DNA from: Planctomycetota bacterium
GTDB taxonomy: Bacteria > Planctomycetota > Planctomycetia > Pirellulales > Pirellulaceae
Assembly: GCA_029979005.1 (NCBI GenBank)
Contig: JAPOIJ010000035.1
Coordinates: forward strand, 1-35,322
Reading direction: 5' to 3'
DNA: 35,322 bases
Under the pieces are notes generated by a model. That model had not been told where the DNA came from. It searched no databases and was given only the letters and a program-made list of their open reading frames with translations. The position numbers and the translations under genes are program-made. This document shows positions 1,370 through 26,077 of the stretch, piece after piece (the first letter of the stretch is position 1; each line of letters begins with the position of its first letter).

Positions 1370-4153
1370 ATGAACGTTTTCAGTCGAGCTTACATCGACA
1401 GTTTATTTGATGACTACCAACAAGATCCAAGTTCGTTGCCACCTGAATGGCAAACCTTTTTTGAGAGCTTTGATCCCGAAAACAGTGAGATCGACTTCAC
1501 TTCGCTTCCGGTAGCCTCAAATTCTTCTGCCTCTTCGCCAGATCACAACACGACGAACAGTCGCAGTGTTGCTCAACTGCAAGACCGGGTGGACCAACTC
1601 ATTCGTGGCTTTCGTGTCCGTGGGCACCTCGAAGCAAAGATTGACCCACTCGGTCGGCCCCGAGCCACCAACAATGAATTGAATCCGGAATCCTACGGAC
1701 TCCTACCATCTGATTTCCCCAAGAACTTCTCGGCACGGACTGTTGATGGTCAAAATTTCAGATCGCTCGAGGAGATCGTTGATCTGATGCGGCAAACCTA
1801 CTGTCGCTCCATTGGCGTCCAGTTCATGCACATTGATGACCACGATGTCCGTAATTGGTTGCAAACGCGAATGGAAGGTTCGCGGAATCGGATGCAACTG
1901 CACCGAAAGACGCAACTAAGAATTTTGACCAAACTGACGGACGCCGTCATTTTCGAAGAATTCATGCGCAAAAAGTTTTTGGGCGCAAAAACATTTTCAC
2001 TCGAGGGCGCTGAGACCCTGATTCCGTTACTCGATCTCGCACTCGAAAAAGCCGGTGATCACGGCGTCAAGCAAGTCGTTTTAGGAATGGCTCATCGCGG
2101 CCGCCTAAACGTGCTGGCCAATATCATGGGCAAACGGGCACAGAATATTTTCTGGGGATTCGACGACCCTGATCCTGAAAAACACCGCGGCGGCGGAGAC
2201 GTCCTCTACCACCTCGGGCACAGCAACGACTGGGTCACCAGCAAAGGTAAAAAGGTTCACATCTCACTTTGCTTTAATCCCAGCCACCTTGAGTTTGTAA
2301 ATCCCGTTGCCATGGGGCGTTGCCGAAGCAAGCAAGATCGCACCTCGGATTTCGATCAATCTGAAACCATGACAGTCTTGATCCACGGCGATGCTGCCTT
2401 TGCGGGTGAAGGCGTTGTCCAGGAAACACTCAACCTGAGCCAACTCGACGGTTACAAGGTCGGCGGAACACTGCACGTCATCGTCAACAATCAAGTTGGT
2501 TTCACCACCGATTGCCACGACAGTCGTTCTACAACGTACGCGAGCGATGTCGCAAAAATGTTGCAAATCCCAATCTTTCACGTCAACGGAGAAGACCCCG
2601 AAGCTGTGGCCCAGGTAGTCAACCTCGCGATGGAATTCCGACGTGCCTTCAATCGGGATGTTGTAATCGACATGTATTGCTACCGAAGGCTGGGACACAA
2701 CGAAAGTGATGAGCCGAGATTCACCCAACCGTTGATGTACAAATCCATTGATAGTCGACCGACAATCCGTGACAGCTACCTAAAACGACTTCTGAAAATG
2801 CAGGAAGTTACTCAGGAAGAAGCCGATCAGATTGCCGAACAGCGAGGCACCAAGCTTCAGGACGAATTCGAATCCACCAAGGTTGAAGGATTTACCCCAG
2901 ATACCCAAACGCTCGAAGGATTGTGGGCTGGATACTACGGAGGGAAAGAGCGATCCGATGATGAAGCGGATACCACGGTTTCTGAAGCGTCTTTAACCGA
3001 GGTGATTCGCAAATCAGCGACGGTCCCCGAAACCTTTAATCTACACCGAAAATTGAAGCGTGTGCTCGAAACACGCATCGACTCAGCCAATGGCAATCGA
3101 GCAATCGATTGGGCCACAGCTGAACTTGCAGCGATGGGTACGCTTGCCATGGAAGGCCACCCGGTCCGTCTTTCAGGTCAGGATTGCGGTCGTGGAACGT
3201 TTAGCCAACGCCATGCAGTATTGCATGACACAGAATCAGCTGAGTCCTACACCCCCCTCAACCACCTCGGAGAGTCACAAGCCAAGGTAAACGTTATCAA
3301 CAGTCCTCTCAGCGAGGCCGGCGTTCTAGGATTCGACTATGGATACAGCCTCGACTCGCCCGACAGCCTGATTATCTGGGAAGCACAGTTTGGTGACTTC
3401 TTCAACGCCGCTCAAGTGATTGTTGACCAATTCATCTGCAGCGCAGAAGACAAATGGGATCGATTGAGTGGATTAACAATGTTCCTACCGCATGGTTTTG
3501 AAGGCGCGGGCCCTGAACATTGCAGCGGTCGACTTGAGAGATTTTTGACTTCCGCGGCGGAACACAATTTCCAGGTCGCCATTCCGACAACCGCCGCGCA
3601 GCACTTTCACCTGCTCCGCCGACAGGTCAAACGAAAATGGCGAAAACCGTTGGTCGTTTTCACGCCGAAGAGCCTACTTCGTGAACCGTATGTCGCTTCG
3701 CCAATTGAGCAGTTCACCGATGGACAATTCCAACGGGTCATCGCTGACGAGGCAGTTCGTCACAACAGCGCACCGCAACGTGTGCTTTTGACCGCGGGGA
3801 AAATTGGCGTGGAACTACTCAAAGCGAGGGAACTCGCTCAACGTAATGATTTCGCCGTTATTAGAGTCGAACAACTTTACCCCCTACCTCATAAAGAAAT
3901 TGAGGCCTGTTTAAGCCAATACGCTTCGGGCACGCCGGTTTTCTGGGTTCAGGAAGAGCCTAGAAACATGGGTGCCTGGTACTTTATGAAAGTTAAATGG
4001 GATGAATTTGGACTCGAAGAAAAATGGCCTTTAAAAGTCATCTGCCGGCCTGAGTCGGCTAGTCCGTCCACCGGCTCAAAGAAGTCTCACAAAATTGAGC
4101 AAGAGGATATTATGAACACTGCGATGAGTTTCCAACGAACCGCAAACGTCTAG
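1370..4153 (+). CDS. sucA: 2-oxoglutarate dehydrogenase E1 component
   Basis: Encodes a 927-residue thiamine-diphosphate E1 that decarboxylates 2-oxoglutarate and passes the succinyl group to the lipoyl E2, a TCA-cycle step in the cytoplasm. The N-terminus (SRAYIDSLFDDYQQDPSSLPP) is the E2-binding segment typical of bacterial E1o. GMAHRGRLNVL lies near residue 239. The ThDP/Mg site runs from HGDAAFAGEG (about 339-348) to VNNQVGFTT (about 373-381). The transketolase-like pyrimidine domain carries LPHGFEGAGPEHCSGRLERF near residue 705-725. Length matches the family (about 930). The ATG fits the conserved N-terminus; Shine-Dalgarno is weak. It leads a sucA-sucB-lpd cluster with a 90-nt gap to sucB. 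No anomaly was seen. Confidence 0.97.
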   Translation: MNVFSRAYIDSLFDDYQQDPSSLPPEWQTFFESFDPENSEIDFTSLPVASNSSASSPDHNTTNSRSVAQLQDRVDQLIRGFRVRGHLEAKIDPLGRPRATNNELNPESYGLLPSDFPKNFSARTVDGQNFRSLEEIVDLMRQTYCRSIGVQFMHIDDHDVRNWLQTRMEGSRNRMQLHRKTQLRILTKLTDAVIFEEFMRKKFLGAKTFSLEGAETLIPLLDLALEKAGDHGVKQVVLGMAHRGRLNVLANIMGKRAQNIFWGFDDPDPEKHRGGGDVLYHLGHSNDWVTSKGKKVHISLCFNPSHLEFVNPVAMGRCRSKQDRTSDFDQSETMTVLIHGDAAFAGEGVVQETLNLSQLDGYKVGGTLHVIVNNQVGFTTDCHDSRSTTYASDVAKMLQIPIFHVNGEDPEAVAQVVNLAMEFRRAFNRDVVIDMYCYRRLGHNESDEPRFTQPLMYKSIDSRPTIRDSYLKRLLKMQEVTQEEADQIAEQRGTKLQDEFESTKVEGFTPDTQTLEGLWAGYYGGKERSDDEADTTVSEASLTEVIRKSATVPETFNLHRKLKRVLETRIDSANGNRAIDWATAELAAMGTLAMEGHPVRLSGQDCGRGTFSQRHAVLHDTESAESYTPLNHLGESQAKVNVINSPLSEAGVLGFDYGYSLDSPDSLIIWEAQFGDFFNAAQVIVDQFICSAEDKWDRLSGLTMFLPHGFEGAGPEHCSGRLERFLTSAAEHNFQVAIPTTAAQHFHLLRRQVKRKWRKPLVVFTPKSLLREPYVASPIEQFTDGQFQRVIADEAVRHNSAPQRVLLTAGKIGVELLKARELAQRNDFAVIRVEQLYPLPHKEIEACLSQYASGTPVFWVQEEPRNMGAWYFMKVKWDEFGLEEKWPLKVICRPESASPSTGSKKSHKIEQEDIMNTAMSFQRTANV

Positions 4154-4243
4154 ACAATCAGCTCCGAATCCAACAGAAAACCGTTCCGTCGATTTTCGAT
4201 TAATTATTTTAGCCAACAAATCCCAACTCAGAATCAGTCGAAC

Positions 4244-5500
4244 ATGTTTGAAATCAAAGTCCCCGAATTTGGCGAGTCAATTCAGGAAGTTCAGGTCGCA
4301 GCCTGGCTTAAGCAGCCTGGCGACTGGATTGAAAAAGACGAAGACATCGTCGAACTCGAATCCGAAAAAGCATCGCAGGCGCTGAGCTCCGAGCGAGCTG
4401 GTATCTTGCAACAAATCAAGGTTGCCGATGGGGAATTTGCTCAGGTCGGCGATATTCTCTGTGTCGTCGAGGAAGGCGAAAAACCGGCAGGCGCCGCCAG
4501 CACTGCAGCAGCTGCTGCAGGGGGAAGCACTGCGGTTGTCGCTGATCCACCTGCTAAAACCACGGAATGGATCATGCCGGCAGCCGAACGCGTGCTCAGC
4601 GAGTACCAAATCTCCGCAGATGCGATCACACCCACCGGCCCCGGCGGACGACTTTTGAAAGAAGACGTTCTTAATTACGTACGAACCAAAGGTCTCAAAC
4701 CAACCGACGCTCAACCTGCGCAAGCTGCCCCGGCAAGTCCCCCGACCAAACCGCAGCCGGCCGCCGAACCGGTCGCTGTATCCGCACCAGACACTAATGA
4801 ACGGATTGAAAAATCTGTTCCAATGAGCATGATTCGGCGAACCATCTCGAAGAGGCTGGTCGAAGCTCAGCAAACAGCTGCCTTGCTGACCACGTTTAAC
4901 GAAATCGACATGCTGCCGGTAAAAGAACTTCGTTCAAAATACAAAGATGCTTTCCTCAAAAAGCATGGCGTTAAGTTAGGATTTATGTCGTTCTTTGCAA
5001 AAGCAGTCGTCGAAGGGTTAAAACGTTACCCTGCCATTAACTCTGAAGTTCAAGGCGATCGTGTGATCGTTAAAAACTATCACGACATTGGAATCGCAAT
5101 TGGAGGTGGAAAGGGGTTAGTCGTACCTATCCTTCGCAACGTCGAAAACATGAGCTTTGCAGTCGTCGAGCGGAAAATCGGCGAATTCGCGGCGCTGGCT
5201 CAGGCGAACAAAATCGTTCCCGATGATCTAAAAGGCGGCACCTTTACGATTAGTAACGGCGGTGTTTACGGTTCGCTACTCTCCACACCGATCGTGAATC
5301 CCCCTCAAAGCGGAATTCTCGGACTCCATACGATTCAGGGCCGTCCAATTGCTCTCAACGGAGAAGTCGTGATCCGCCCGATGATGTATGTGGCGCTGAC
5401 TTACGACCACCGAATCGTTGACGGAAAAGAGGCGGTCGGTTTTCTAAAAACAATTAAGGAAGTGCTCGAAGAGCCTGCCCGTTTATTCCTTGAAGTTTGA
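4244..5500 (+). CDS. sucB: 2-oxoglutarate dehydrogenase E2 (dihydrolipoamide succinyltransferase)
   Basis: A 418-residue E2 core of the 2-oxoglutarate dehydrogenase complex, transferring succinyl from lipoamide to CoA. Domains in order: lipoyl domain (1-80) with the lipoylated lysine at K42 in ELESEKAS; an Ala/Pro/Gly-rich linker (about 82-105); the peripheral subunit-binding domain (about 108-143, [12 protein letters not shown] ... [11 protein letters not shown]); a second Pro/Ala linker; and a CAT-like catalytic domain (about 190-418) with the active-site DHRIVDG at 388-394 (H389, D393). This is the single-lipoyl arrangement usual for SucB. It sits 90 nt after sucA and 110 nt before lpd, so all three complex subunits are probably co-transcribed. 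It ends in TGA, showing that TGA works as a normal stop here. Confidence 0.96.
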
Positions 5501-5610
5501 ATGCTTCACTCAGATTCGAAATCCGGATTTGAAAATCTCGAACAACCAAATCGGATTTGCTCACGTTCTTGCCGCTTATCCTCAACCTCATAGCGATACT
5601 TTATTTTATC

Positions 5611-6993
5611 ATGGCTGATCAAAAATTTGACCTTATCATTGTCGGCGGTGGTCCCGGTGGTTATGTCGCAGCAATACGTGCCGCGCAACTGGGATTGAAA
5701 ACGGCTGTCATCGACGAGAATCCGCAATTTGGTGGAACTTGCCTTCGCGTTGGCTGTATTCCCAGCAAAGCCCTTCTCGAGTCCAGCCACCTGCTCGTCG
5801 AGGCTCGCGACCACATGGTCGAACACGGAATCACTGCGACCAAATTAACCGTTGACCTCTCAGCCATGATGAAGCGGAAGTCGAAAATTGTTGACACTCT
5901 TACCGGTGGAATCAACATGCTCCTCAAGCGGAACAAAGTTACAACTTACGTCGGTCGCGGAAAACTAGCGGGAAACGGACAGGTCGTTGTCTCTACTGGC
6001 GACACTCTCGTCGCGGCGAACATCATTGTTGCGACCGGCAGTGTACCAATGCGTCTTCCCGGCATCGAGTTCGATGGCGAGTTCATTGGTGACAGCACAA
6101 CCGCCCTGAGCTATCCGAATGTTCCTAAAAGCCTAGTCGTGATTGGTGGCGGCTACATTGGCCTCGAACTGGGATCAGTCTGGAGCAGACTCGGTTCGAA
6201 AGTCATTATTCTTGAAGGCATGGACCACGTACTGCCGGGTCTTGATCAAGAAATTGCAAGAACCGCAAAACGGACGTTTGAAAAGCAAGGACTCGAATTC
6301 CACACCAGCATGTGGGTCGAAAGCGCGAAACGCGAGGGAAACAACTGCGTCGTCAAATGCAAAGATGCTGCCCCCATCCAATGCGATCGGGTACTGGTCT
6401 CGGCAGGACGGGTTCCCAATACCGCCGACGTCGGACTTAAAGAAGCGGGCGTCGAACTCGATCAGCGAGGATTTATTTCCGTCAATCAACATCTTGCTAC
6501 GACAGCTCCCGGTGTCTTCGCGATCGGAGACTGTATCGGAGGAGCAATGCTGGCTCATAAAGCATCCGAAGAGGGAATTGCCTGTGTTGAGTGGATCGTG
6601 AACGGGGCAGGGCATGTCAACCACGACACGATTCCTGCCGTTGTTTACACCCACCCTGAAATTGCAATGGTTGGGAAGACCGAAGAACAGCTTAAAGCAG
6701 AGGGTATTTCCTACCGGAAAGGCTCCTGCCCATTCGGGGCTAACGGTCGAGCGAGAGCGATGGGCGAAGCTGAAGGGAAAATTAAAATTCTCGCCGATGC
6801 CCAGTCTGACCGCATCGTCGGTGTCCATGCGATCGGTGCTCGTGCAGGTGATTTGATCGCTGAAGCAGCGGTGGCAATGAATTTCGGTGCCTCTAGTGAA
6901 GATCTAGCTAGATGCTGCCATGCCCATCCGACACTGTCAGAAATTATGCAGGAAGCGGCACTCGCAGTCGACGGCCGGGCAATTCACACTTAA
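5611..6993 (+). CDS. lpd: Dihydrolipoyl dehydrogenase (E3)
   Basis: A 460-residue FAD disulfide oxidoreductase that reoxidises dihydrolipoamide of the E2 with NAD+. FAD-binding GGGPGG is at 12-17; the redox-active pair is C44/C49 in GGTCLRVGCIPSKALL. A second Rossmann motif (VIGGGYIGLELGSVW) binds NAD, the TSPGVFAIGD-like segment appears as TAPGVFAIGDCIGG, and the C-terminal dimerisation domain carries the His-Glu pair H439/E444 in HAHPTLSE. The frame is open 18 codons upstream, but those residues (hydrophobic, no family match) precede the normal N-terminus MADQKFDLIIVGG, so I choose the ATG at 5611. Third gene of the sucA-sucB-lpd unit; it may also serve pyruvate dehydrogenase. Confidence 0.96.
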   Translation: MADQKFDLIIVGGGPGGYVAAIRAAQLGLKTAVIDENPQFGGTCLRVGCIPSKALLESSHLLVEARDHMVEHGITATKLTVDLSAMMKRKSKIVDTLTGGINMLLKRNKVTTYVGRGKLAGNGQVVVSTGDTLVAANIIVATGSVPMRLPGIEFDGEFIGDSTTALSYPNVPKSLVVIGGGYIGLELGSVWSRLGSKVIILEGMDHVLPGLDQEIARTAKRTFEKQGLEFHTSMWVESAKREGNNCVVKCKDAAPIQCDRVLVSAGRVPNTADVGLKEAGVELDQRGFISVNQHLATTAPGVFAIGDCIGGAMLAHKASEEGIACVEWIVNGAGHVNHDTIPAVVYTHPEIAMVGKTEEQLKAEGISYRKGSCPFGANGRARAMGEAEGKIKILADAQSDRIVGVHAIGARAGDLIAEAAVAMNFGASSEDLARCCHAHPTLSEIMQEAALAVDGRAIHT

Positions 6994-18239: not shown

Positions 18240-20870
18240 TCAATTCCCTGCCAACGCAACCTCGGAGATCACGCAGATTTCGGTTTCATTCGGAGCCTCT
18301 ACCGTCGTATTGTTACCGCTGGGCCAACGAATTTCCAGTTTCGCAATAGAATCCCCCTCAGGAATTCCGATGGAATGAGTTGCTGAATTCTGGCTTGAAA
18401 ACCCTTCTCCCGCCTGATTTTGGATCAAAATCTTTCTTCCCGATGAGTAGATCACCAAAACCTGTGCACCGATACCATCACGATTGCTTAAATTCTCTGT
18501 TGGCTCAGAAGATGTATTACCGCCTTGTAGTCGAAACTGAAAGGGTCGATTTCCAGACCTTACGGCAGACATTTTATTCTTGAATAATTTAAACCGGGGT
18601 GCGTTCAGAGACATCAGGGCGATATCCTGCCAGCCATCGCGATCAAAATCCAGTGTCGCAAAGGAGCGACCGTCAGCAATGTCGTCAGCACCACTAAGTA
18701 AAGTTACATCGGTAAAATTATCACCAAGCTGTAAAAACAAACGGTTTCGCTCACGACCGCTGAGTGAATTGCTCGTGAATTTCAAACCGTCATCTGATAG
18801 GTCACTTGACGCTTTGGGAGGTGCCCGAACAATCACATCATTGACGTACCGCTGGTGCTGCCAGAGATCATTCGATTTAAAGTCCTCTCCCTGGGTTGTA
18901 TCTTCACGCACGACCGTGCGCCATAGACACGATCACAAATCAACCTTCGTATCGATCTCCGGAGGGGCAGTATAGAACCCAGTCGGCACATACAGATCCA
19001 GACGTCCGTCATTGTCGAAGTCAGCCCATTGACCCCCGTACGACCAGCCTACCTGGTTAACCCGAAACTGATCGTCTCCAGTGCCTGCTCGCTGTTCAAA
19101 TTTCCCATCCGAATTAACAAACAAAAAACAACCGGCAGCCGCAACTTCAATGCGAGGGTCAACCGAATCAAGTTTTTTTACGATCCGACGGCCTGCTTTT
19201 GAAAACATATTAGATACATAAAGATCTAGGTCACCATCGGCGTCAAAATCGCCAAAGGACGCTCCCATTCCAAAACCAACCCCCTTATTGACCAATGCGG
19301 ATTCTGTAATCTCAACAAAGACCGGTTGGCTTGCTCCACGGGGAGTGTCGTTGCGCAATAAGGCATCGGGGGCAAAATCATTACACACATACAGATCATC
19401 ATCGCCATCGTTATCTATATCCGACCACACCGGCTGATAGGATCGACGCCACTGAGACACAACATCATCAAAGGGTACTCGTTCTAATCGACCGTTCCCT
19501 CGATTCATCAAGAGAACGTTTGCGGTGCCCGCGGTTCCAATCCATTTTTCGCTCGCCTCTCGCTTCTCGAGATAAATTTTTCGCTCTTTTTCACTTAGAA
19601 AATGATGCTCGAAGGCTGTGTCTTTTTTACTCAATGGCGGATAACTACTCATGTAGATATCAATCAGACCATCTCGATTGACATCCGCTGCCGCGATTCC
19701 GCTGGTAAAATACTGCAAGTCCGTTCCGAGATCCGATTGCGTGCTCGTCACGTCCTCAAAAACACCTCCATTGTTTTGAAAATACCGTGCGGGCTCCAGC
19801 GAATGTCCCATCAACAGGTCTTTGTCACCATCATTGTCGAGATCCACGAACAATACACAATTAACAAGGAAATCAACTTTTAACCCGATCGACTCCGCCA
19901 CGTCCACAAATGTACCGTCCCCTCGATTCTTTAACATCTGAGTCGGTCCCCAACGAGCCGTCAGGAAAATATCATCCCATCCATCATTATTAAAATCAAC
20001 GACCGAAACTGATGGATAAACATGATCAGACGTCATCGTCGTCCACTTCGAATACTTATTGTCAGGCAAATCATAAACACCCGTCTGTGCCGTCTCTAAA
20101 ATAATTTCATCAAGAAACGAACGCTGCGCATTGGCCAGCGAATCCGGATCTTTTAGAACCTCGGCCAAAACCTCCTCGAACAACGGTTGCTGAGAACGCT
20201 CGATATAAAAATCCTCTTGAGTCCATTTCTTTAGGAACCAATCTCCAGATTCCTTTTGAAACTCAAGCGTCTGGTAAGCCTTCAAGCCATAAAGCCAAGG
20301 CGAATCGACCGATATTGATTTCCCTCTAGCTTCGACTTTTGTGTTGATGACAAACACATTTTTATCAGCATCGGAAAAATCCCCGGCGATAGCACCAAAC
20401 TTCATTGTCTCCCATTGGGCATCGAGGGACATTGCTGACTGCCACGGGTCAATCGCCGTTTCTATCGGCGCTTCGACCAAAGGCCAGTGCCCCACCTCGA
20501 CAAAATCAGCATGGCTAGCATCCCGATGAAACACCTGCTCAGCACTGATCTCCGCCAAACCAGTCACACTGACACAATCCGATAATTCCGGTGAAAGCGG
20601 GAGAGCCGGATTCTGCGATCGCTGTTCATACCATGCTGCAATCCTGCTCAACCGTGGCGTCAAATCCAGAATCAGATCTTCGCTTTTGATCAAGTCATCG
20701 ATCACCGCAGTTTCCGCCAGATTAATTTCTCCTGTGGGAGGGTTAGGGGATGGTTCCTTCTCTCCCACACAACCTTGAGTTGTCACAAAAGTAAGTAACA
20801 GAACGGCCATCAAAAACACAAAATGTGTGCTGACAACGTATTTGACCTGCACCGCTGACTGATTATTCAT
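18240..20870 (-). CDS. Putative selenoprotein, FG-GAP/ASPIC-UnbV lipoprotein, copy 3 (in-frame TGA at 18935-18933)
   Basis: Read as one gene the product has 876 residues with selenocysteine at position 646. A type II signal ends at TTQGC34. An N-terminal region of about 230 residues of unknown fold precedes FG-GAP calcium-binding repeats (DFNNDGWDD, DLDNDGDKD, DVNRDGLID, DIDNDGDDD, DFDADGDLD, DFDNDGRLD). Then comes the TGA, SCLWRTVVRED, a seventh blade (DFDRDGWQD) and the ASPIC/UnbV domain (NRDGIGAQVLVIYSSGRK ... AGEGF ... RWPSG). Both halves are needed for the usual CRTAC-type architecture. The ATG overlaps the end of copy 2 by 8 bases, so translation is coupled. If the TGA were a true stop, the product would be a 645-residue protein lacking the last blade and domain. 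The only alternative restart, a GTG at 18911, lies inside the hairpin without an SD. Confidence 0.82.
18906..18921 (-). promoter_or_regulatory. Predicted bacterial SECIS hairpin (copy 3)
   Basis: Minus-strand RNA GCGCAC-GGUC-GUGCGU: six pairs (one G-U at the base) closing a GGUC loop. The loop starts 17 nt after the TGA. A GGU-containing apical loop at this distance is what SelB recognises in bacterial SECIS elements such as fdhF of E. coli. Here the second pair below the loop is A-U, where the sister copies have U-U. Confidence 0.78.
18933..18935 (-). other. In-frame TGA, predicted selenocysteine codon (copy 3)
   Basis: The codon order on the minus strand is GAT TTG TGA TCG TGT CTA TGG: D-L-U-S-C-L-W. 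The reading frame continues without a stop to 18240. The same position carries TGA in the two sister genes. Confidence 0.82.
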
Positions 20871-23475
20871 CGCCCACTTCCTCGATTGTCAAAATTTCTG
20901 CAACACTCGGATTCATGATCTCCGTCTTCAACCCCGAAGGCCAGCGAACTTCGACTCGCTCAACCGCATCTCCTTGGGGAATCCCAATCATTTTTACGTC
21001 AGAGTTTTGACTCGCAAACCCTTCCCCCGCCTGCTTTTGGACCAGCAATTTGTTCCCAGAGGCAAAAGTAATGAGAGCAGTTGCTCCAATTCCATCTCGG
21101 TTACTTAGTTTTTCCGAAGGAGTTCCAGCGCGTTGCCCTCCGATCAAACGAAAACGAAACGACGAATTCTCGGGGTAGATTTTCTTCAGTTCGTTTCGGT
21201 ACAGTTTAAACCGGGGAGCGTTCAGTGACATCATTGCAATATCCTGCCAGCCATCCTGATCGAAATCCAATAGAGCAAAGGAGCGCCCGTCGGCGATATC
21301 GTCTACACCGCTGATTAATGTCACGTCGGAAAAATTATCCCCGTGCCGCAGAAACATCCTATTTCTTTCACGACCGCTGAGTGAATTACTGGTAAAGCCC
21401 CATTTTTGTTTCACCCGGGCACCCGGTCCCTGAGCGGAATCTACGAGTACACGATTTTGATATTTTTGATTGTCCCAACGAGAATCATCGCGGAACACAT
21501 CATCTTGAGTAGGGTCTTCGCGCACGACCGAGCGCCAAAGGCACGATCAGGTATCGACCTGTGTATCGATTTCCTCCGGCGCCGTGTAAAAACCGGTTGG
21601 AACATACAGGTCTAATTGACTGTTGTTGTCAAAATCTCCCCACTGCCCTCCATAAGACCAGCCAACCTGATTGACGTGATATTCGCCGTCCGCAGAACCA
21701 GCGGTTTGCGAGAATTTTCCGTCGTCATTTACAAATAGAAAACAACCGGCTGCTGCGACCTCAATCCGCTCATCGACTGAACCCAACTTCTGGATAATCC
21801 GCCGCCCTGCTTTAGAGAACATGTTGGATACATAAAGATCAAGATCTCCGTCGCGGTCAAAGTCACCATACGATGCCCCCATCCCAAAACCAAACCCTTT
21901 ATAGGTCAGAACCTCTGACGTCACGTCAACAAACACAGGCTGCGCGGCTCCGCGAGGGGTATCGTTCCTCAACATCGAATCCGGGGCGAAGTCGTTACAC
22001 ACATATAAATCATCGTCGCCATCGTTATCGATATCGGCCCATACCGCTTGGAAAGAACGATGCCACTGAGCCAACTCTTCGTCATAAGGCACTCGTTCCA
22101 AGCGACCGCCACCGCGATTCATCAACAGCACATTCGCTGAACCGGCGAGATCCAACCAACGATTACTGTTCGCTCTTTTTTCGAGAAATCGAACTCGCTC
22201 CTCTTCATTGAGAAACGTCTGCTCGAACGAGGCATTTTCTTTGTTGAGTGGTGGATAATTACTCAAATAAATATCAATCAACCCATCCCGATTAACATCA
22301 GCAGCAGATATCCCACTCGTAAAAAATTGCCTACCAATATCGGACTTTGTTTTTGTGACATCTTTATAGATGCCATCCTGATTCTCAAGATATTTAGCCG
22401 TCTCCATCGGCCGCCCCATGATTGCATCCTTGTCGCCGTCGTTATCGAGATCAACAAACAGGACGCAATTCACCAAATACTCCTCATAAAGCCCGACTTC
22501 TTTGGCTACGTCGACGTAGGTACCGTCTCCCAGATTCTTCAACATTTGGGTCGGCCCCCATCGAGCCGTAATAAAAATATCCTCCAGACCGTCGTTATTA
22601 AAATCCACAACAGAAACCGATGGCAGAATATTATCCGATGTCAGGTTGGTCCAAGGCACGTATTCAGGAATGGGCAAAACAAACCCACCCTTACTCGATG
22701 ACTTTAAAATGATTTCATCCTTAAACGATCGCTGGGCGTTGCTAAGGGCCGTTTCATCGGGAAGAACTTCACTGAGCACTTCACGAAAAAGAGGTTGCTC
22801 CGTTCGCTCAACAAAAAAATCTTCTTGCACCCAACTGCTTAATTCCCAAGTCTCATCCACCTTCTTAAACACAACTATTTGATGAGCCTTCATACCCAAT
22901 GCAGCACCGGATTCGGCAACCCCGCGCCCATCCACTTTCGTGTGCATCTCAAACTCATCACGCTGATCGTTAGTAAAATCTCCGGCAATCACGCCAAATT
23001 TCAGCGTCTCCCACCCTACATTCAGTCGCTTTGCAGATTCCCACGGATTAATTGCTTCATTGGTCTGTTCCCCAATTGGCCAGTGAATGGTCTCCAAGAA
23101 CCCTGGCTCGTTGGGGTCCGCGCCAAACAATTCAGCTGGATCTAGTTCTGCAATCCCTACGAAGGATTTGCAATTCTCAAAATCAACCGGCAATTCGTCC
23201 TTGTCTCCGACGGAGTTTTCCTGAAACCAAGATGCAAGCTCAGTTAAACGAGGCGTGAGGTCGAGGAGGAGATCTTCACTTGCAATCAGATTATCAACGC
23301 GACGTTCTTCTTCAGTGAGGACGCTTCCACCAACCTCTTCTGAACCACCGATAGGCGGAGTTGAATTGTTACAACCAATTAAAACCGCCCCCATAAAAAC
23401 GAGAGTGATGAGGCCACTCCATTTTCCACAATGAGCATTCGTTGCGTTGGACAATTGAAAGAACCGTCGCACCAT
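20863..23475 (-). CDS. Putative selenoprotein, FG-GAP/ASPIC-UnbV lipoprotein, copy 2 (in-frame TGA at 21549-21547)
   Basis: Read through, 870 residues with Sec at 643. The signal ends in a perfect lipobox LIGC35, so this is the clearest lipoprotein of the three. FG-GAP repeats include DFNNDGLED, DLDNDGDKD, DVNRDGLID, DIDNDGDDD, DFDRDGDLD and DFDNNSQLD, the last of these with a weakened calcium motif. After the TGA: SCLWRSVVRED, blade 7 (DFDQDGWQD) and an ASPIC/UnbV domain (NRDGIGATALITFASGNK). The gene starts 1 nt after copy 1 ends, with AGGAG (23486-23490) inside the end of copy 1. It is therefore co-translated with copy 1. Role unknown; surface or periplasmic binding or redox is inferred. 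Confidence 0.82.
21520..21535 (-). promoter_or_regulatory. Predicted bacterial SECIS hairpin (copy 2)
   Basis: GCGCUC-GGUC-GUGCGC: four G-C/C-G pairs, a U-U mismatch, one C-G pair and the GGUC loop, 17 nt from the TGA. The base pair that is G-U in copy 3 is G-C here, a pair-preserving change. Confidence 0.78.
21547..21549 (-). other. In-frame TGA, predicted selenocysteine codon (copy 2)
   Basis: Minus-strand codons GAT ACC TGA TCG TGC CTT TGG read D-T-U-S-C-L-W. Compared with copy 3, the codons for Cys and Leu after the TGA differ only at the third base. Confidence 0.82.
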
Positions 23476-23476
23476 A

Positions 23477-26077
23477 TCAGTTCAGCTCCTCAATCAAGGT
23501 AATGGCCTGTGCATCCGGGGAATCGACAGCCGTTGTTTTTCCAGATGGCCACTTCACAACAAGTGAAACAACCTCGTCCCCAGCAGGCACTCCGGCCGAA
23601 AGGACGCCGGAATTCTGAGAGGCAAACCCCTCGCCACATTGTTTCTGAATGACCATTGTTTTGCCAGATCGATACTTCACAAACACTTTCGCCCCGATCC
23701 CGTCACGATTGGACTTTCCAGCCTGACTCTGGCCAGAATCCGCCGATCCGCGAAGACGAAAACGCACGGATCGATTACCGGGATACAAATCCTGCATTTG
23801 ATTTCTATACAATTTGAATTTTGGATTATTGAGAGACATCAGTGCGATGTCCTGCCAACCGTCTTGATCGAAATCCACCACCGCAAACGATCGACCGTCG
23901 GCAATATCATCAGCACCGCTGACCAACGTCACGTCAGCAAAATTCCCCGCACGGTTCATAAACAGACGATTGCGCTCATTGCCACTTAACGAATTACTCT
24001 TAAAACTGAATTGCTGCATTCGCCGCCCGTTCGGGTCACCTTCAGCAGGCATAAAAATTTGGTCTTTATACTTCTGCGTTTCCCACGCGGAAACTGACTG
24101 AAACTCTTTCTTTTGACTTGGATCTTCGCGCACGACCGAGCGCCACAGACATGATCAGGTATCTACCTCCGTCGCAATTTCAGTGGGCGCGGTGTAATAA
24201 CCGGAAGGAACATAGAGATCCAGTTTACCGTCGTTATTAAAATCCGAAAACTGACCGCCGAATGACCAACCAACTTGGTGAACTTTAAACTGTCCTTCCC
24301 CCTCACCGGCGCGTTGTTCGAATTCACCGTCTTCGTTGACGTACAGAAAACTACCTTTCGTTGCCACATCGATTCGTTCATCCACTCGCCCCAGTTTATC
24401 TGCGATCCGTCGGCCAGCTTTTGAGTACATGTTGGAAACGTATAGATCGAGATCACCATCTTGATCAAAATCACCGAACGAGGCTCCCATTCCAAACCCA
24501 ATACCGCGATTCGTGATGGCTGTATCAGTAACGTTCACGAACACGGGTTTCTCAGCACCAGCAGGCGTATCATTTCTCAATAAAGCGTCCGGAGAAAAAT
24601 CATTACAGATGTAGAGATCATCGTCACCGTCCGAATCAAAATCAGCCCACACCGACTGAAACGAACGTCGCCATTGGGAAAGGTCATCATCGTAGGGCAC
24701 CCTCTCCAGTCTGCCACCACCTCGATTCATCAACAAAACATTCGCCGAACCCGGAAGATCGAGCCAACGGTTCATTGTCTTTCTTTTTTCGTCGTAAATC
24801 TCCCTTTCTTCGTCTCCGAGGAAAACATCCTGGAATCGTTGAGACGCCTTATTCAACGCGGGATAACTGCTGAGATAGACATCCAGCAATCCATCTCGAT
24901 TAATATCGGCGGCGGATATTCCACAAACGAAATACTGCTTACCCAGATCGGAGTGAGTTTTAGTCACATTTTTGAAGACACCCGACTCATTTAAAAGATA
25001 TTTCGCCGGCTCCATGGGTCGACCGAGAATTGCATCTTTATCACCATCATTGTCGATATCGAGAAAGAGCGCACAATTTACCATATACTCTTCACGAAGG
25101 CCGATTTTCTCAGCCACATCGATGTAGGAACCGTCGGGTTGTTGCTCCAACATCTGCGTTGCGGCCCAACGCGAAGTAAGAAACAGGTCATCCAATCCAT
25201 CCCCGTTATAGTCGACGACTGCTACGGAAGGAAAAACATGATTGGAAGGTAGCTCTTCCCAGTCAGCCACCAAGGGAACCGGCAAGGTAATCTTTCCACC
25301 CTTGCGAGATGATCTCACAATTATCTCGTCTTTATGAGAACGTTGAATTTCTTGCAACGTTTCGGGATCCGAAATCACTTCCGAAAGTACTTCACGGAAA
25401 AGAGGCTGGGCTGCGCGTTCCAAAAACAAATCACCCTGCAACCACTTGGTCAATTTCCAGGTTCCATTTTTCCGCTCGAATTGAAAATCCTGATGCCCTT
25501 TTATTCCCCAAACAGAATCGGAGGATCTACCGCGTCCCTCAACCTTACTATGAATCAAATACACATCCTCTGCCTCAAAGCCCCCCGAGAGAACGCCGAA
25601 CTTCAAGGTTTCCCACTGCACGCCAAAAACGTCTAACGCCCTCCAGGGAAACGCCGCTGCCGGGGAAGCTTCTTCTTCGATTGGCCAATTGGCTTTTTCA
25701 AGAAACTCAGGATAGTTCTCACGCCTCCCAAATAGCGTCTCCGCATCAGTCGCTGCAAGCCCTCGAACTGAGACTAGATCACTAAGCACGGGCAGTTCGA
25801 ATGCAGATCCAACCTTTCGCTGTTCAATCCACGACGCAATTTGTCTCAGTTGCGGCGTTAGATCAAGAATCAAATCTTCGCTGGCAATTAACCCAGTGAC
25901 GCTCTGCTCGACCTCCGTTTTCGGCGCGCTAACAGGTTCTCGGCCTTCGTTTCCTTTTTGGCACGAGACGCTGGTTAGCAAGAAGACAGTAAGCAGAGAA
26001 CTCAATGCCAATAATCTCAAAATCGATTCAGCATGGCACCTAGAAAATTCCCCGAAAAAATTCGAGTCAGAACGCAT
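23477..26077 (-). CDS. Putative selenoprotein, FG-GAP/ASPIC-UnbV lipoprotein, copy 1 (in-frame TGA at 24157-24155)
   Basis: First gene of the tandem set in transcription order; 866 residues with Sec at 641. ATG 26077 has TAAGGA just upstream. The hydrophobic signal (about 19-38) ends at Cys 39 in TSVSC, a poor but plausible lipobox. FG-GAP repeats: DYNGDGLDD, DIDNDGDKD, DINRDGLLD, DFDSDGDDD, DFDQDGDLD, DFNNDGKLD; then the TGA, SCLWRSVVRED, blade 7 (DFDQDGWQD) and ASPIC/UnbV (NRDGIGAKVFVKYRSGKT). It shares near-identical blocks with copies 2 and 3 (for example GFGMGASFGDFD, NDTP, DDIADGRSFA). Divergent from the lactonase gene; the 167-nt gap must carry both promoters. Homology of the repeats to CRTAC1 is recognised; function is not known. 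Confidence 0.82.
24128..24143 (-). promoter_or_regulatory. Predicted bacterial SECIS hairpin (copy 1)
   Basis: Identical in sequence to the copy 2 hairpin: GCGCUC-GGUC-GUGCGC, with the loop starting 17 nt after the TGA. The in-frame GTG that could restart translation (24133) lies on the 3' arm right after the loop. Confidence 0.78.
24155..24157 (-). other. In-frame TGA, predicted selenocysteine codon (copy 1)
   Basis: Minus-strand codons GAT ACC TGA TCA TGT CTG TGG read D-T-U-S-C-L-W. The Ser codon is TCA where the sisters use TCG, and Leu is CTG where they use CTA and CTT: all synonymous changes. Confidence 0.82.

Follow-up and report, generated by a model that had tools for sequence, protein, structure and literature searches.

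The question raised by this locus is whether three neighbouring reading frames, each interrupted by a TGA at the same place, are broken genes or genes whose TGA is translated. They lie on the reverse strand of the window, by which we mean the whole stretch of 35,322 nucleotides of planctomycete DNA that was analysed, at positions 23477..26077 (gene 1 of the tandem, 866 residues), 20863..23475 (gene 2, 870 residues) and 18240..20870 (gene 3, 876 residues). The start of gene 3 overlaps the end of gene 2 by 8 bases, and the two outer genes show 57% and 59% identity to the middle one. Each contains exactly one in-frame TGA, at 24155..24157, 21547..21549 and 18933..18935, respectively, after which the frame remains open up to a normal stop. 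Conservation in the own genome and among homologues leads us to read these codons as selenocysteine (Sec), at residues 641, 643 and 646. An earlier note on this DNA had described three adjacent paralogues of about 870 codons, interrupted at one aligned position and open thereafter; the alignment confirms this, with all three TGA codons in a single column followed by S-C-L-W-R. The placement of an ASPIC/UnbV domain after the TGA was likewise borne out by Pfam, which identified FG-GAP repeats in all three genes and UnbV_ASPIC (PF07593) downstream of each TGA (E 1.1e-11 to 8.3e-11). Standard frame reading cuts each gene in two, as had been predicted for automated annotation. Elsewhere in the window TGA is an ordinary terminator: the 20 reading frames end with TGA in nine cases, TAA in eight and TAG in three, and two of the three tandem genes themselves end with TGA. 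The products are putative lipoproteins, judged from lipobox-like sequences read by eye (VLIGC in the middle gene).

We estimate a probability of roughly 90% that the UGA of these FG-GAP/UnbV genes is decoded as Sec and that the product is an exported CRTAC1-like propeller bearing a redox-active selenol. The analysis itself shows the reading frames, the Sec machinery, the conservation, a hairpin that covaries in the largest subgroup, and the fused domains; that Sec is inserted, that the protein is exported and catalyses redox chemistry, and which thiols serve as partners is what we infer, in the following form. SelB and tRNA-Sec would decode the internal UGA with the help of a SECIS hairpin, the GGUC loop of which starts 17 bases on, so that each gene would give one full-length protein of about 870 residues. 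This protein would be a CRTAC1-like beta-propeller, exported and probably anchored by a lipid, that ends in an ASPIC/UnbV domain; its Sec, opening a helix in the late part of the propeller, would act as a redox-active selenol. Its partner would probably be the Cys two residues on (U-S-C) in the subfamily of the window, and a fused TlpA/ResA-like CxxC domain in most other members.

The TGA is conserved well beyond the tandem. In the source genome, all seven copies spanning the site (the three window genes and four further ones, two of which are truncated by contig ends) carry TGA followed by S-C-L-W-R. A protein search of 99 genomes, namely the own genome and 98 relatives, returned one TGA in every listed row spanning residue 643, and the five listed rows without a stop all end before that residue. 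Loci were then examined at the nucleotide level, chosen mostly from listed TGA rows plus selB-negative genomes; they gave 133 aligned places over the column, of which 102 contain exactly one in-frame stop, always TGA, located exactly at the column in 100 cases and beside an alignment gap in two. A TGA with an open frame after it was found in listed rows down to 31% identity. The 31 places without a stop were left out of the hairpin counts; apart from L029, they are for the most part incomplete or off-register alignments in selB-negative genomes (L060-L089). Among them, L060 is a non-Sec homologue aligned across the site, where it has Ala. A Cys at the site in L089 belongs to an off-register FG-GAP alignment and was not counted as a Cys homologue. 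The earlier note had looked to homologues for Cys or Sec at this column, and the Sec part stood, with TGA in 102 of the 133 places, whereas a Cys homologue was not found. TAA or TAG, which it regarded as speaking against Sec, occurred in none of the 133 aligned places.

The surroundings of the site are conserved as well. Asp occupies position U-2 in all 99 sites of a set that was not selected for it. Of 205 distinct sites, 187 have Ser at U+1, and Phe and Cys occupy U+2 in 100 and 49, respectively. The sequence downstream of the TGA is strongly conserved. That the UGA terminates, in split or decaying genes giving a product of about 640 residues and a separate C-terminal piece, accords with standard frame reading, and a protein stopping before the UnbV domain is conceivable, but this is extremely improbable in view of a UGA with an open frame after it recurring in 102 places and in rows as distant as 31% identity, of the downstream conservation together with synonymous constraint, and of the 111 of 114 pattern matches in the named loci that are open on both sides by the criterion of our script. 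The other three matches were judged by eye to be a chance match (L187), a frame-broken copy (L228) and a match near the end of its locus (L237).

The genetic equipment for Sec insertion was searched for in the source genome, a 5.06 Mb draft with 92.5% completeness. All four genes that the earlier note had proposed to look for are present: selB (365.9 bits, cut-off 242.25), selA (586 bits), selD (259 bits) and the tRNA-Sec gene selC (67.4 bits, gathering score 47), the last also called by ARAGORN as tRNA-SeC with anticodon TCA. The selB, selA, selD and tRNA-Sec genes lie on four different contigs (C65, C201, C124 and C233), so that no single sel operon is apparent in the draft. The selD match (locus L018, G000:C124:23733-24641) lies within a 740-residue open frame, roughly double the length of the SelD model, which suggests a possible fusion.

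Among the 98 relatives, 80 were examined for selB, which was detected at E<=1e-60 in 45. Against this base rate, it was found in all 18 genomes outside the window's genus that had listed TGA rows. Fifteen of these 18 selB-positive family genomes also have a tRNA-Sec above 60 bits, and the search for this tRNA found none in the remaining three (G041, G063 and G087). A nineteenth genome, G029, carries a TGA copy (L061) and no selB at E<=1e-60; since its tRNA-Sec scores 65.8 bits, a gap or a missed gene is the likely reason. The gathering score of the tRNA-Sec model is unspecific by itself, as the Caulobacter and Thermus controls, which are not known to use Sec, also exceed it; three selB-negative genomes score 50-54 bits.

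SECIS-type hairpins were located on the reverse strand, with positions counted from the TGA, at 24128..24143 in gene 1, 21520..21535 in gene 2 and 18906..18921 in gene 3. Gene 3 has a clean stem of six base pairs (GCGCAC-GGUC-GUGCGU), and in the other two the unbroken stem is only four pairs long. For gene 1, the predicted fold shows a GCGC stem around UCGGUCGU, with a larger loop; by eye, the loop can alternatively be drawn as GGUC, enclosed by a C-G pair and a U.U mismatch. The hairpin letters of gene 2 are identical to those of gene 1, and there the predicted minimum-energy fold of 51 bases favours a different structure. In most family members, with the UGA numbered as bases 1-3, bases 15-20 pair with 25-30 or 26-31 around a GGUC(G) loop, the GGUC beginning 17 bases after the UGA. 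The published bSECIS model comprises for most families a loop of 3-9 nt with a G in its first two positions and a stem of 4-16 bp, situated 16-37 nt from the UGA. This model fits the third window gene and the two main subgroups of the family, which account for 136 of 205 sites; it fits the first and second window genes only when the U.U mismatch is allowed.

Support for the hairpin comes from the set of sites, whose members are related to each other. Folding energy over positions +4..+51 (48 bases) was not lower than in synonymous shuffles (mean z -0.30, with 4 of 99 sites at p<=0.05). The longest stem at +13..+39 averaged 5.85 pairs over 99 distinct sites against 4.78 expected, with eight control windows within 0.31 of expectation and one of the 99 sites passing alone. 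Codon choice is heavily constrained in 99 sites not chosen for the hairpin, where Val+7 is GTC in 86 of 92 cases (expected 0.36) and Val+8 is GTG in 83 of 89 (expected 0.29). A comparable bias affects the Leu preceding Sec (Leu-1), encoded by TTG in 66 of 67 sites (expected 0.28); being upstream of the UGA, it is unexplained by the hairpin. In the window, the codon before the TGA occupies 18936-18938, 21550-21552 and 24158-24160, and it encodes Leu only in the third gene.

In the largest subgroup, characterised by W-R-Q-V-V (120 sites), the hairpin is kept by compensatory change. The third base of the Arg codon can pair with base 28 in 119 of the 120 sites, as A-U (52), G-U (45), G-C (17), C-G (4) or U-G (1), against a shuffle mean of 102.1 and with none of 10,000 shuffles reaching as high; in addition, two sites have A-U in place of C-G at pair 16-30. 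Because this Arg base is synonymous in CGN codons, selection on the protein does not explain the pairing, although the shared ancestry of the sites means that the shuffles overstate its significance. The second subgroup (PDG-U, 16 sites) has a six-pair stem of its own, and in the remaining 69 sites, those of the window included, the stem is weaker, with only three pairs reaching 75%. Hairpins in other registers and with other loops (e.g., AGUUC and CGUGUC) were observed in L023, L027, L145 and the PDG-U group (L104, L122, L110 and others), indicating that the position of the SECIS shifts by a few bases within the family. A search of Rfam at the site returned no plausible RNA family, only a chance snoRNA match (E 3.1).

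Reading of the UGA as some other residue (Cys, Trp or another), by a suppressor tRNA or leaky termination, is scarcely more probable than plain termination. Sec was assigned without a Cys homologue as a guide, and to that extent we infer the residue; on the other side, the TGA-bearing genes are accompanied by selB and tRNA-Sec, in most members the hairpin conforms to the bSECIS model and shows covariation, and TGA also terminates genes in the window. Machinery, column conservation and hairpin thus jointly argue for the earlier note's proposal that the three genes encode selenoproteins.

What the Sec residue does was approached through the architecture of the protein. An AlphaFold model of gene 2, built from 22 sequences with Cys replacing Sec, reached a pLDDT of 86.7 and a pTM of 0.86, and places residue 643 as the first of a helix spanning 643-652. 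Its closest match in the PDB is CRTAC1 (9etn; Foldseek E 3.1e-24, TM 0.73 by target length), and the window genes combine the two features of the CRTAC1-like class, FG-GAP repeats followed by UnbV_ASPIC and the CRTAC1 fold. Beyond UnbV, 12 of the 15 members scanned, a sample that includes short forms, have an AhpC-TSA/Redoxin domain. NCBIfam describes this fused C-terminal domain as TlpA/ResA-like, with scores below its cut-offs, and CxxC is retained in 13 of the 14 domains inspected. Of 118 usable complete tails, those of U-x-C members are short in 30 of 30 cases, whereas those of the others are long in 84 of 88, and a simple motif scan found CxxC in 79 of the 84 long members. The window genes are of the short, U-x-C (U-S-C) form. 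The association between U-x-C and short tails seems overwhelming in a Fisher test (30/0 versus 4/84) but is not taken as statistical proof, since U-x-C changes only twice on a tree of 97 rows; it is suggestive of a two-lineage pattern. In one locus, a second frame with UnbV and AhpC-TSA/redoxin (L179:71-967) lies upstream of the family gene and may correspond to a tandem paralogue's C-terminal half.

The best-surviving alternative accepts the selenoprotein and assigns Sec to metal binding or a structural crosslink instead of redox catalysis. FG-GAP repeats bind calcium, Cys at U+2 is absent from 156 of 205 sites, and no oxidoreductase activity is known for mammalian CRTAC1. Against this stand the CxxC-containing TlpA-like domain fused in most long members and the position of Sec, which begins a helix, as redox-active Sec or Cys usually does. 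We regard a metal-binding or structural role as unlikely, while granting it clearly more weight than either alternative to Sec itself, and retain the redox-active selenol as the preferred reading.

The family is widespread. When 84,980 species, each represented by a single genome, were scanned with a pattern, at least 109 stretches matched; the 80 titles listed are mainly from Verrucomicrobiota (Akkermansiaceae, Roseibacillus, Verrucomicrobiales) and Planctomycetota, with one Acidobacteriota and one Terriglobia assembly also among them. With a second pattern, 44 of 99 genomes gave a total of 125 matches, compared with 5 for its reversed control; the 125 were partly checked, and some are plainly chance. 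One genome (G031) accounts for 17 of them, 9 of which were fetched and found in frame. Across 392 Planctomycetota genomes, the Sec form of the residue pattern matched 61 times in 37 genomes, at the level of the pattern, against none for the reversed control, and its Cys form gave no in-frame match; the single candidate was rejected as chance because it carries an in-frame TAA. No relatives were found by a search of viral contigs.

The absence of a Cys form may explain how the family escaped screens based on Cys/Sec pairs. Nearly all selenoproteins have Cys homologues according to PMC13188914; in contrast with the proteins treated there, none was found for the FG-GAP/UnbV family. Many selenoprotein screens depend on such homologues, and a family lacking them reveals a blind spot. 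We lean slightly towards a broader view, in which these proteins would be a large class of Sec-obligate exported propeller oxidoreductases, a CRTAC1-type fold turned into an enzyme, their selenol recycled in cis by the neighbouring Cys or the fused thioredoxin domain, expanded across planctomycetes and verrucomicrobia, phyla that would be much richer in selenoproteins than surveys record.

The genomic neighbourhood offers few functional hints. A sulfatase gene (PF00884; 16712..18202, reverse strand) lies 37 bases downstream of gene 3 on the same strand and is a possible operon partner of the tandem; a crude scan of the named loci for sulfatase motifs was uninformative (5 of 109 loci). The named loci have 26 same-strand close neighbours; the 20 of these that were examined revealed no clear partner or common theme: three are PEP-CTERM proteins, two contain TSP3 repeats, two are family-like reading frames, and the rest are mixed or without a match. 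Farther away in the window (1370-6993) are adjoining genes for a 2-oxoglutarate dehydrogenase E1, an acyltransferase of E2 type and an E3-like pyridine-nucleotide-disulfide oxidoreductase.

The FG-GAP and ASPIC/UnbV pair is present in many copies in these genomes and has no well-established function in bacteria, and the present reading provides it with a testable enzymatic role. No model of NCBIfam release 20 covered the propeller and Sec site in the 10 proteins scanned; the matches obtained (TlpA/thioredoxin-like, TPR and a weak XAC2610) were all below cut-off, and two thioredoxin-type selenoprotein models matched the fused CxxC domain only. Table 1 of PMC13188914, which in 2026 listed 119 families of prokaryotic selenoproteins, has no FG-GAP, UnbV or CRTAC entry, and the families that the available part of this paper credits to Haft and Tolstoy 2025 (mSystems) include none of FG-GAP/UnbV type. 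For two planctomycetes, PMC4807772 describes Sec genes together with candidate selenoproteins, and the enzymes named in its available part are others. Among the papers listed, titles and abstract openings disclosed none joining selenoproteins with FG-GAP, UnbV or CRTAC1 in bacteria. The earlier note's suspicion that the family is undescribed thus agrees with that inventory table and with NCBIfam, and a widespread FG-GAP/UnbV selenoprotein family of planctomycetes and verrucomicrobia has apparently gone undescribed. A multi-copy family appears to be missing from present inventories and frame reading splits its genes, so that selenium use by these two phyla would be underestimated.

Compared with known systems, the family shares with CRTAC1 (9etn; ASPIC/UnbV, FG-GAP propeller) a common fold over most of its length, but the sequence match is weak (E 6.3e-5; 15% identity in the Foldseek alignment), and the bacterial proteins add an N-terminal region, the D-x-U-S/T-x-x-W motif and often TlpA-like and TPR domains. 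TlpA/ResA/DsbE oxidoreductases have their counterpart, CxxC included, in the C-terminal domain of the long members, where it is only one part of a fusion with the Sec propeller and its scores stay below NCBIfam cut-offs; the short form of the window lacks it. The closest parallel in decoding is E. coli fdhF, which also decodes UGA with a hairpin in the coding sequence just downstream and has the loop letters GGUC in common with the family, although its GGUC lies one base further from the UGA and its protein, formate dehydrogenase H, is unrelated; the fdhF SECIS has a bulged U. The prokaryotic families in Table 1 of PMC13188914 are mostly redox Sec proteins, among which U-x-C and C-x-U motifs occur. 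The mechanism of UGA recoding is itself classical; new are the protein family as such, its architecture and its restriction to Sec.
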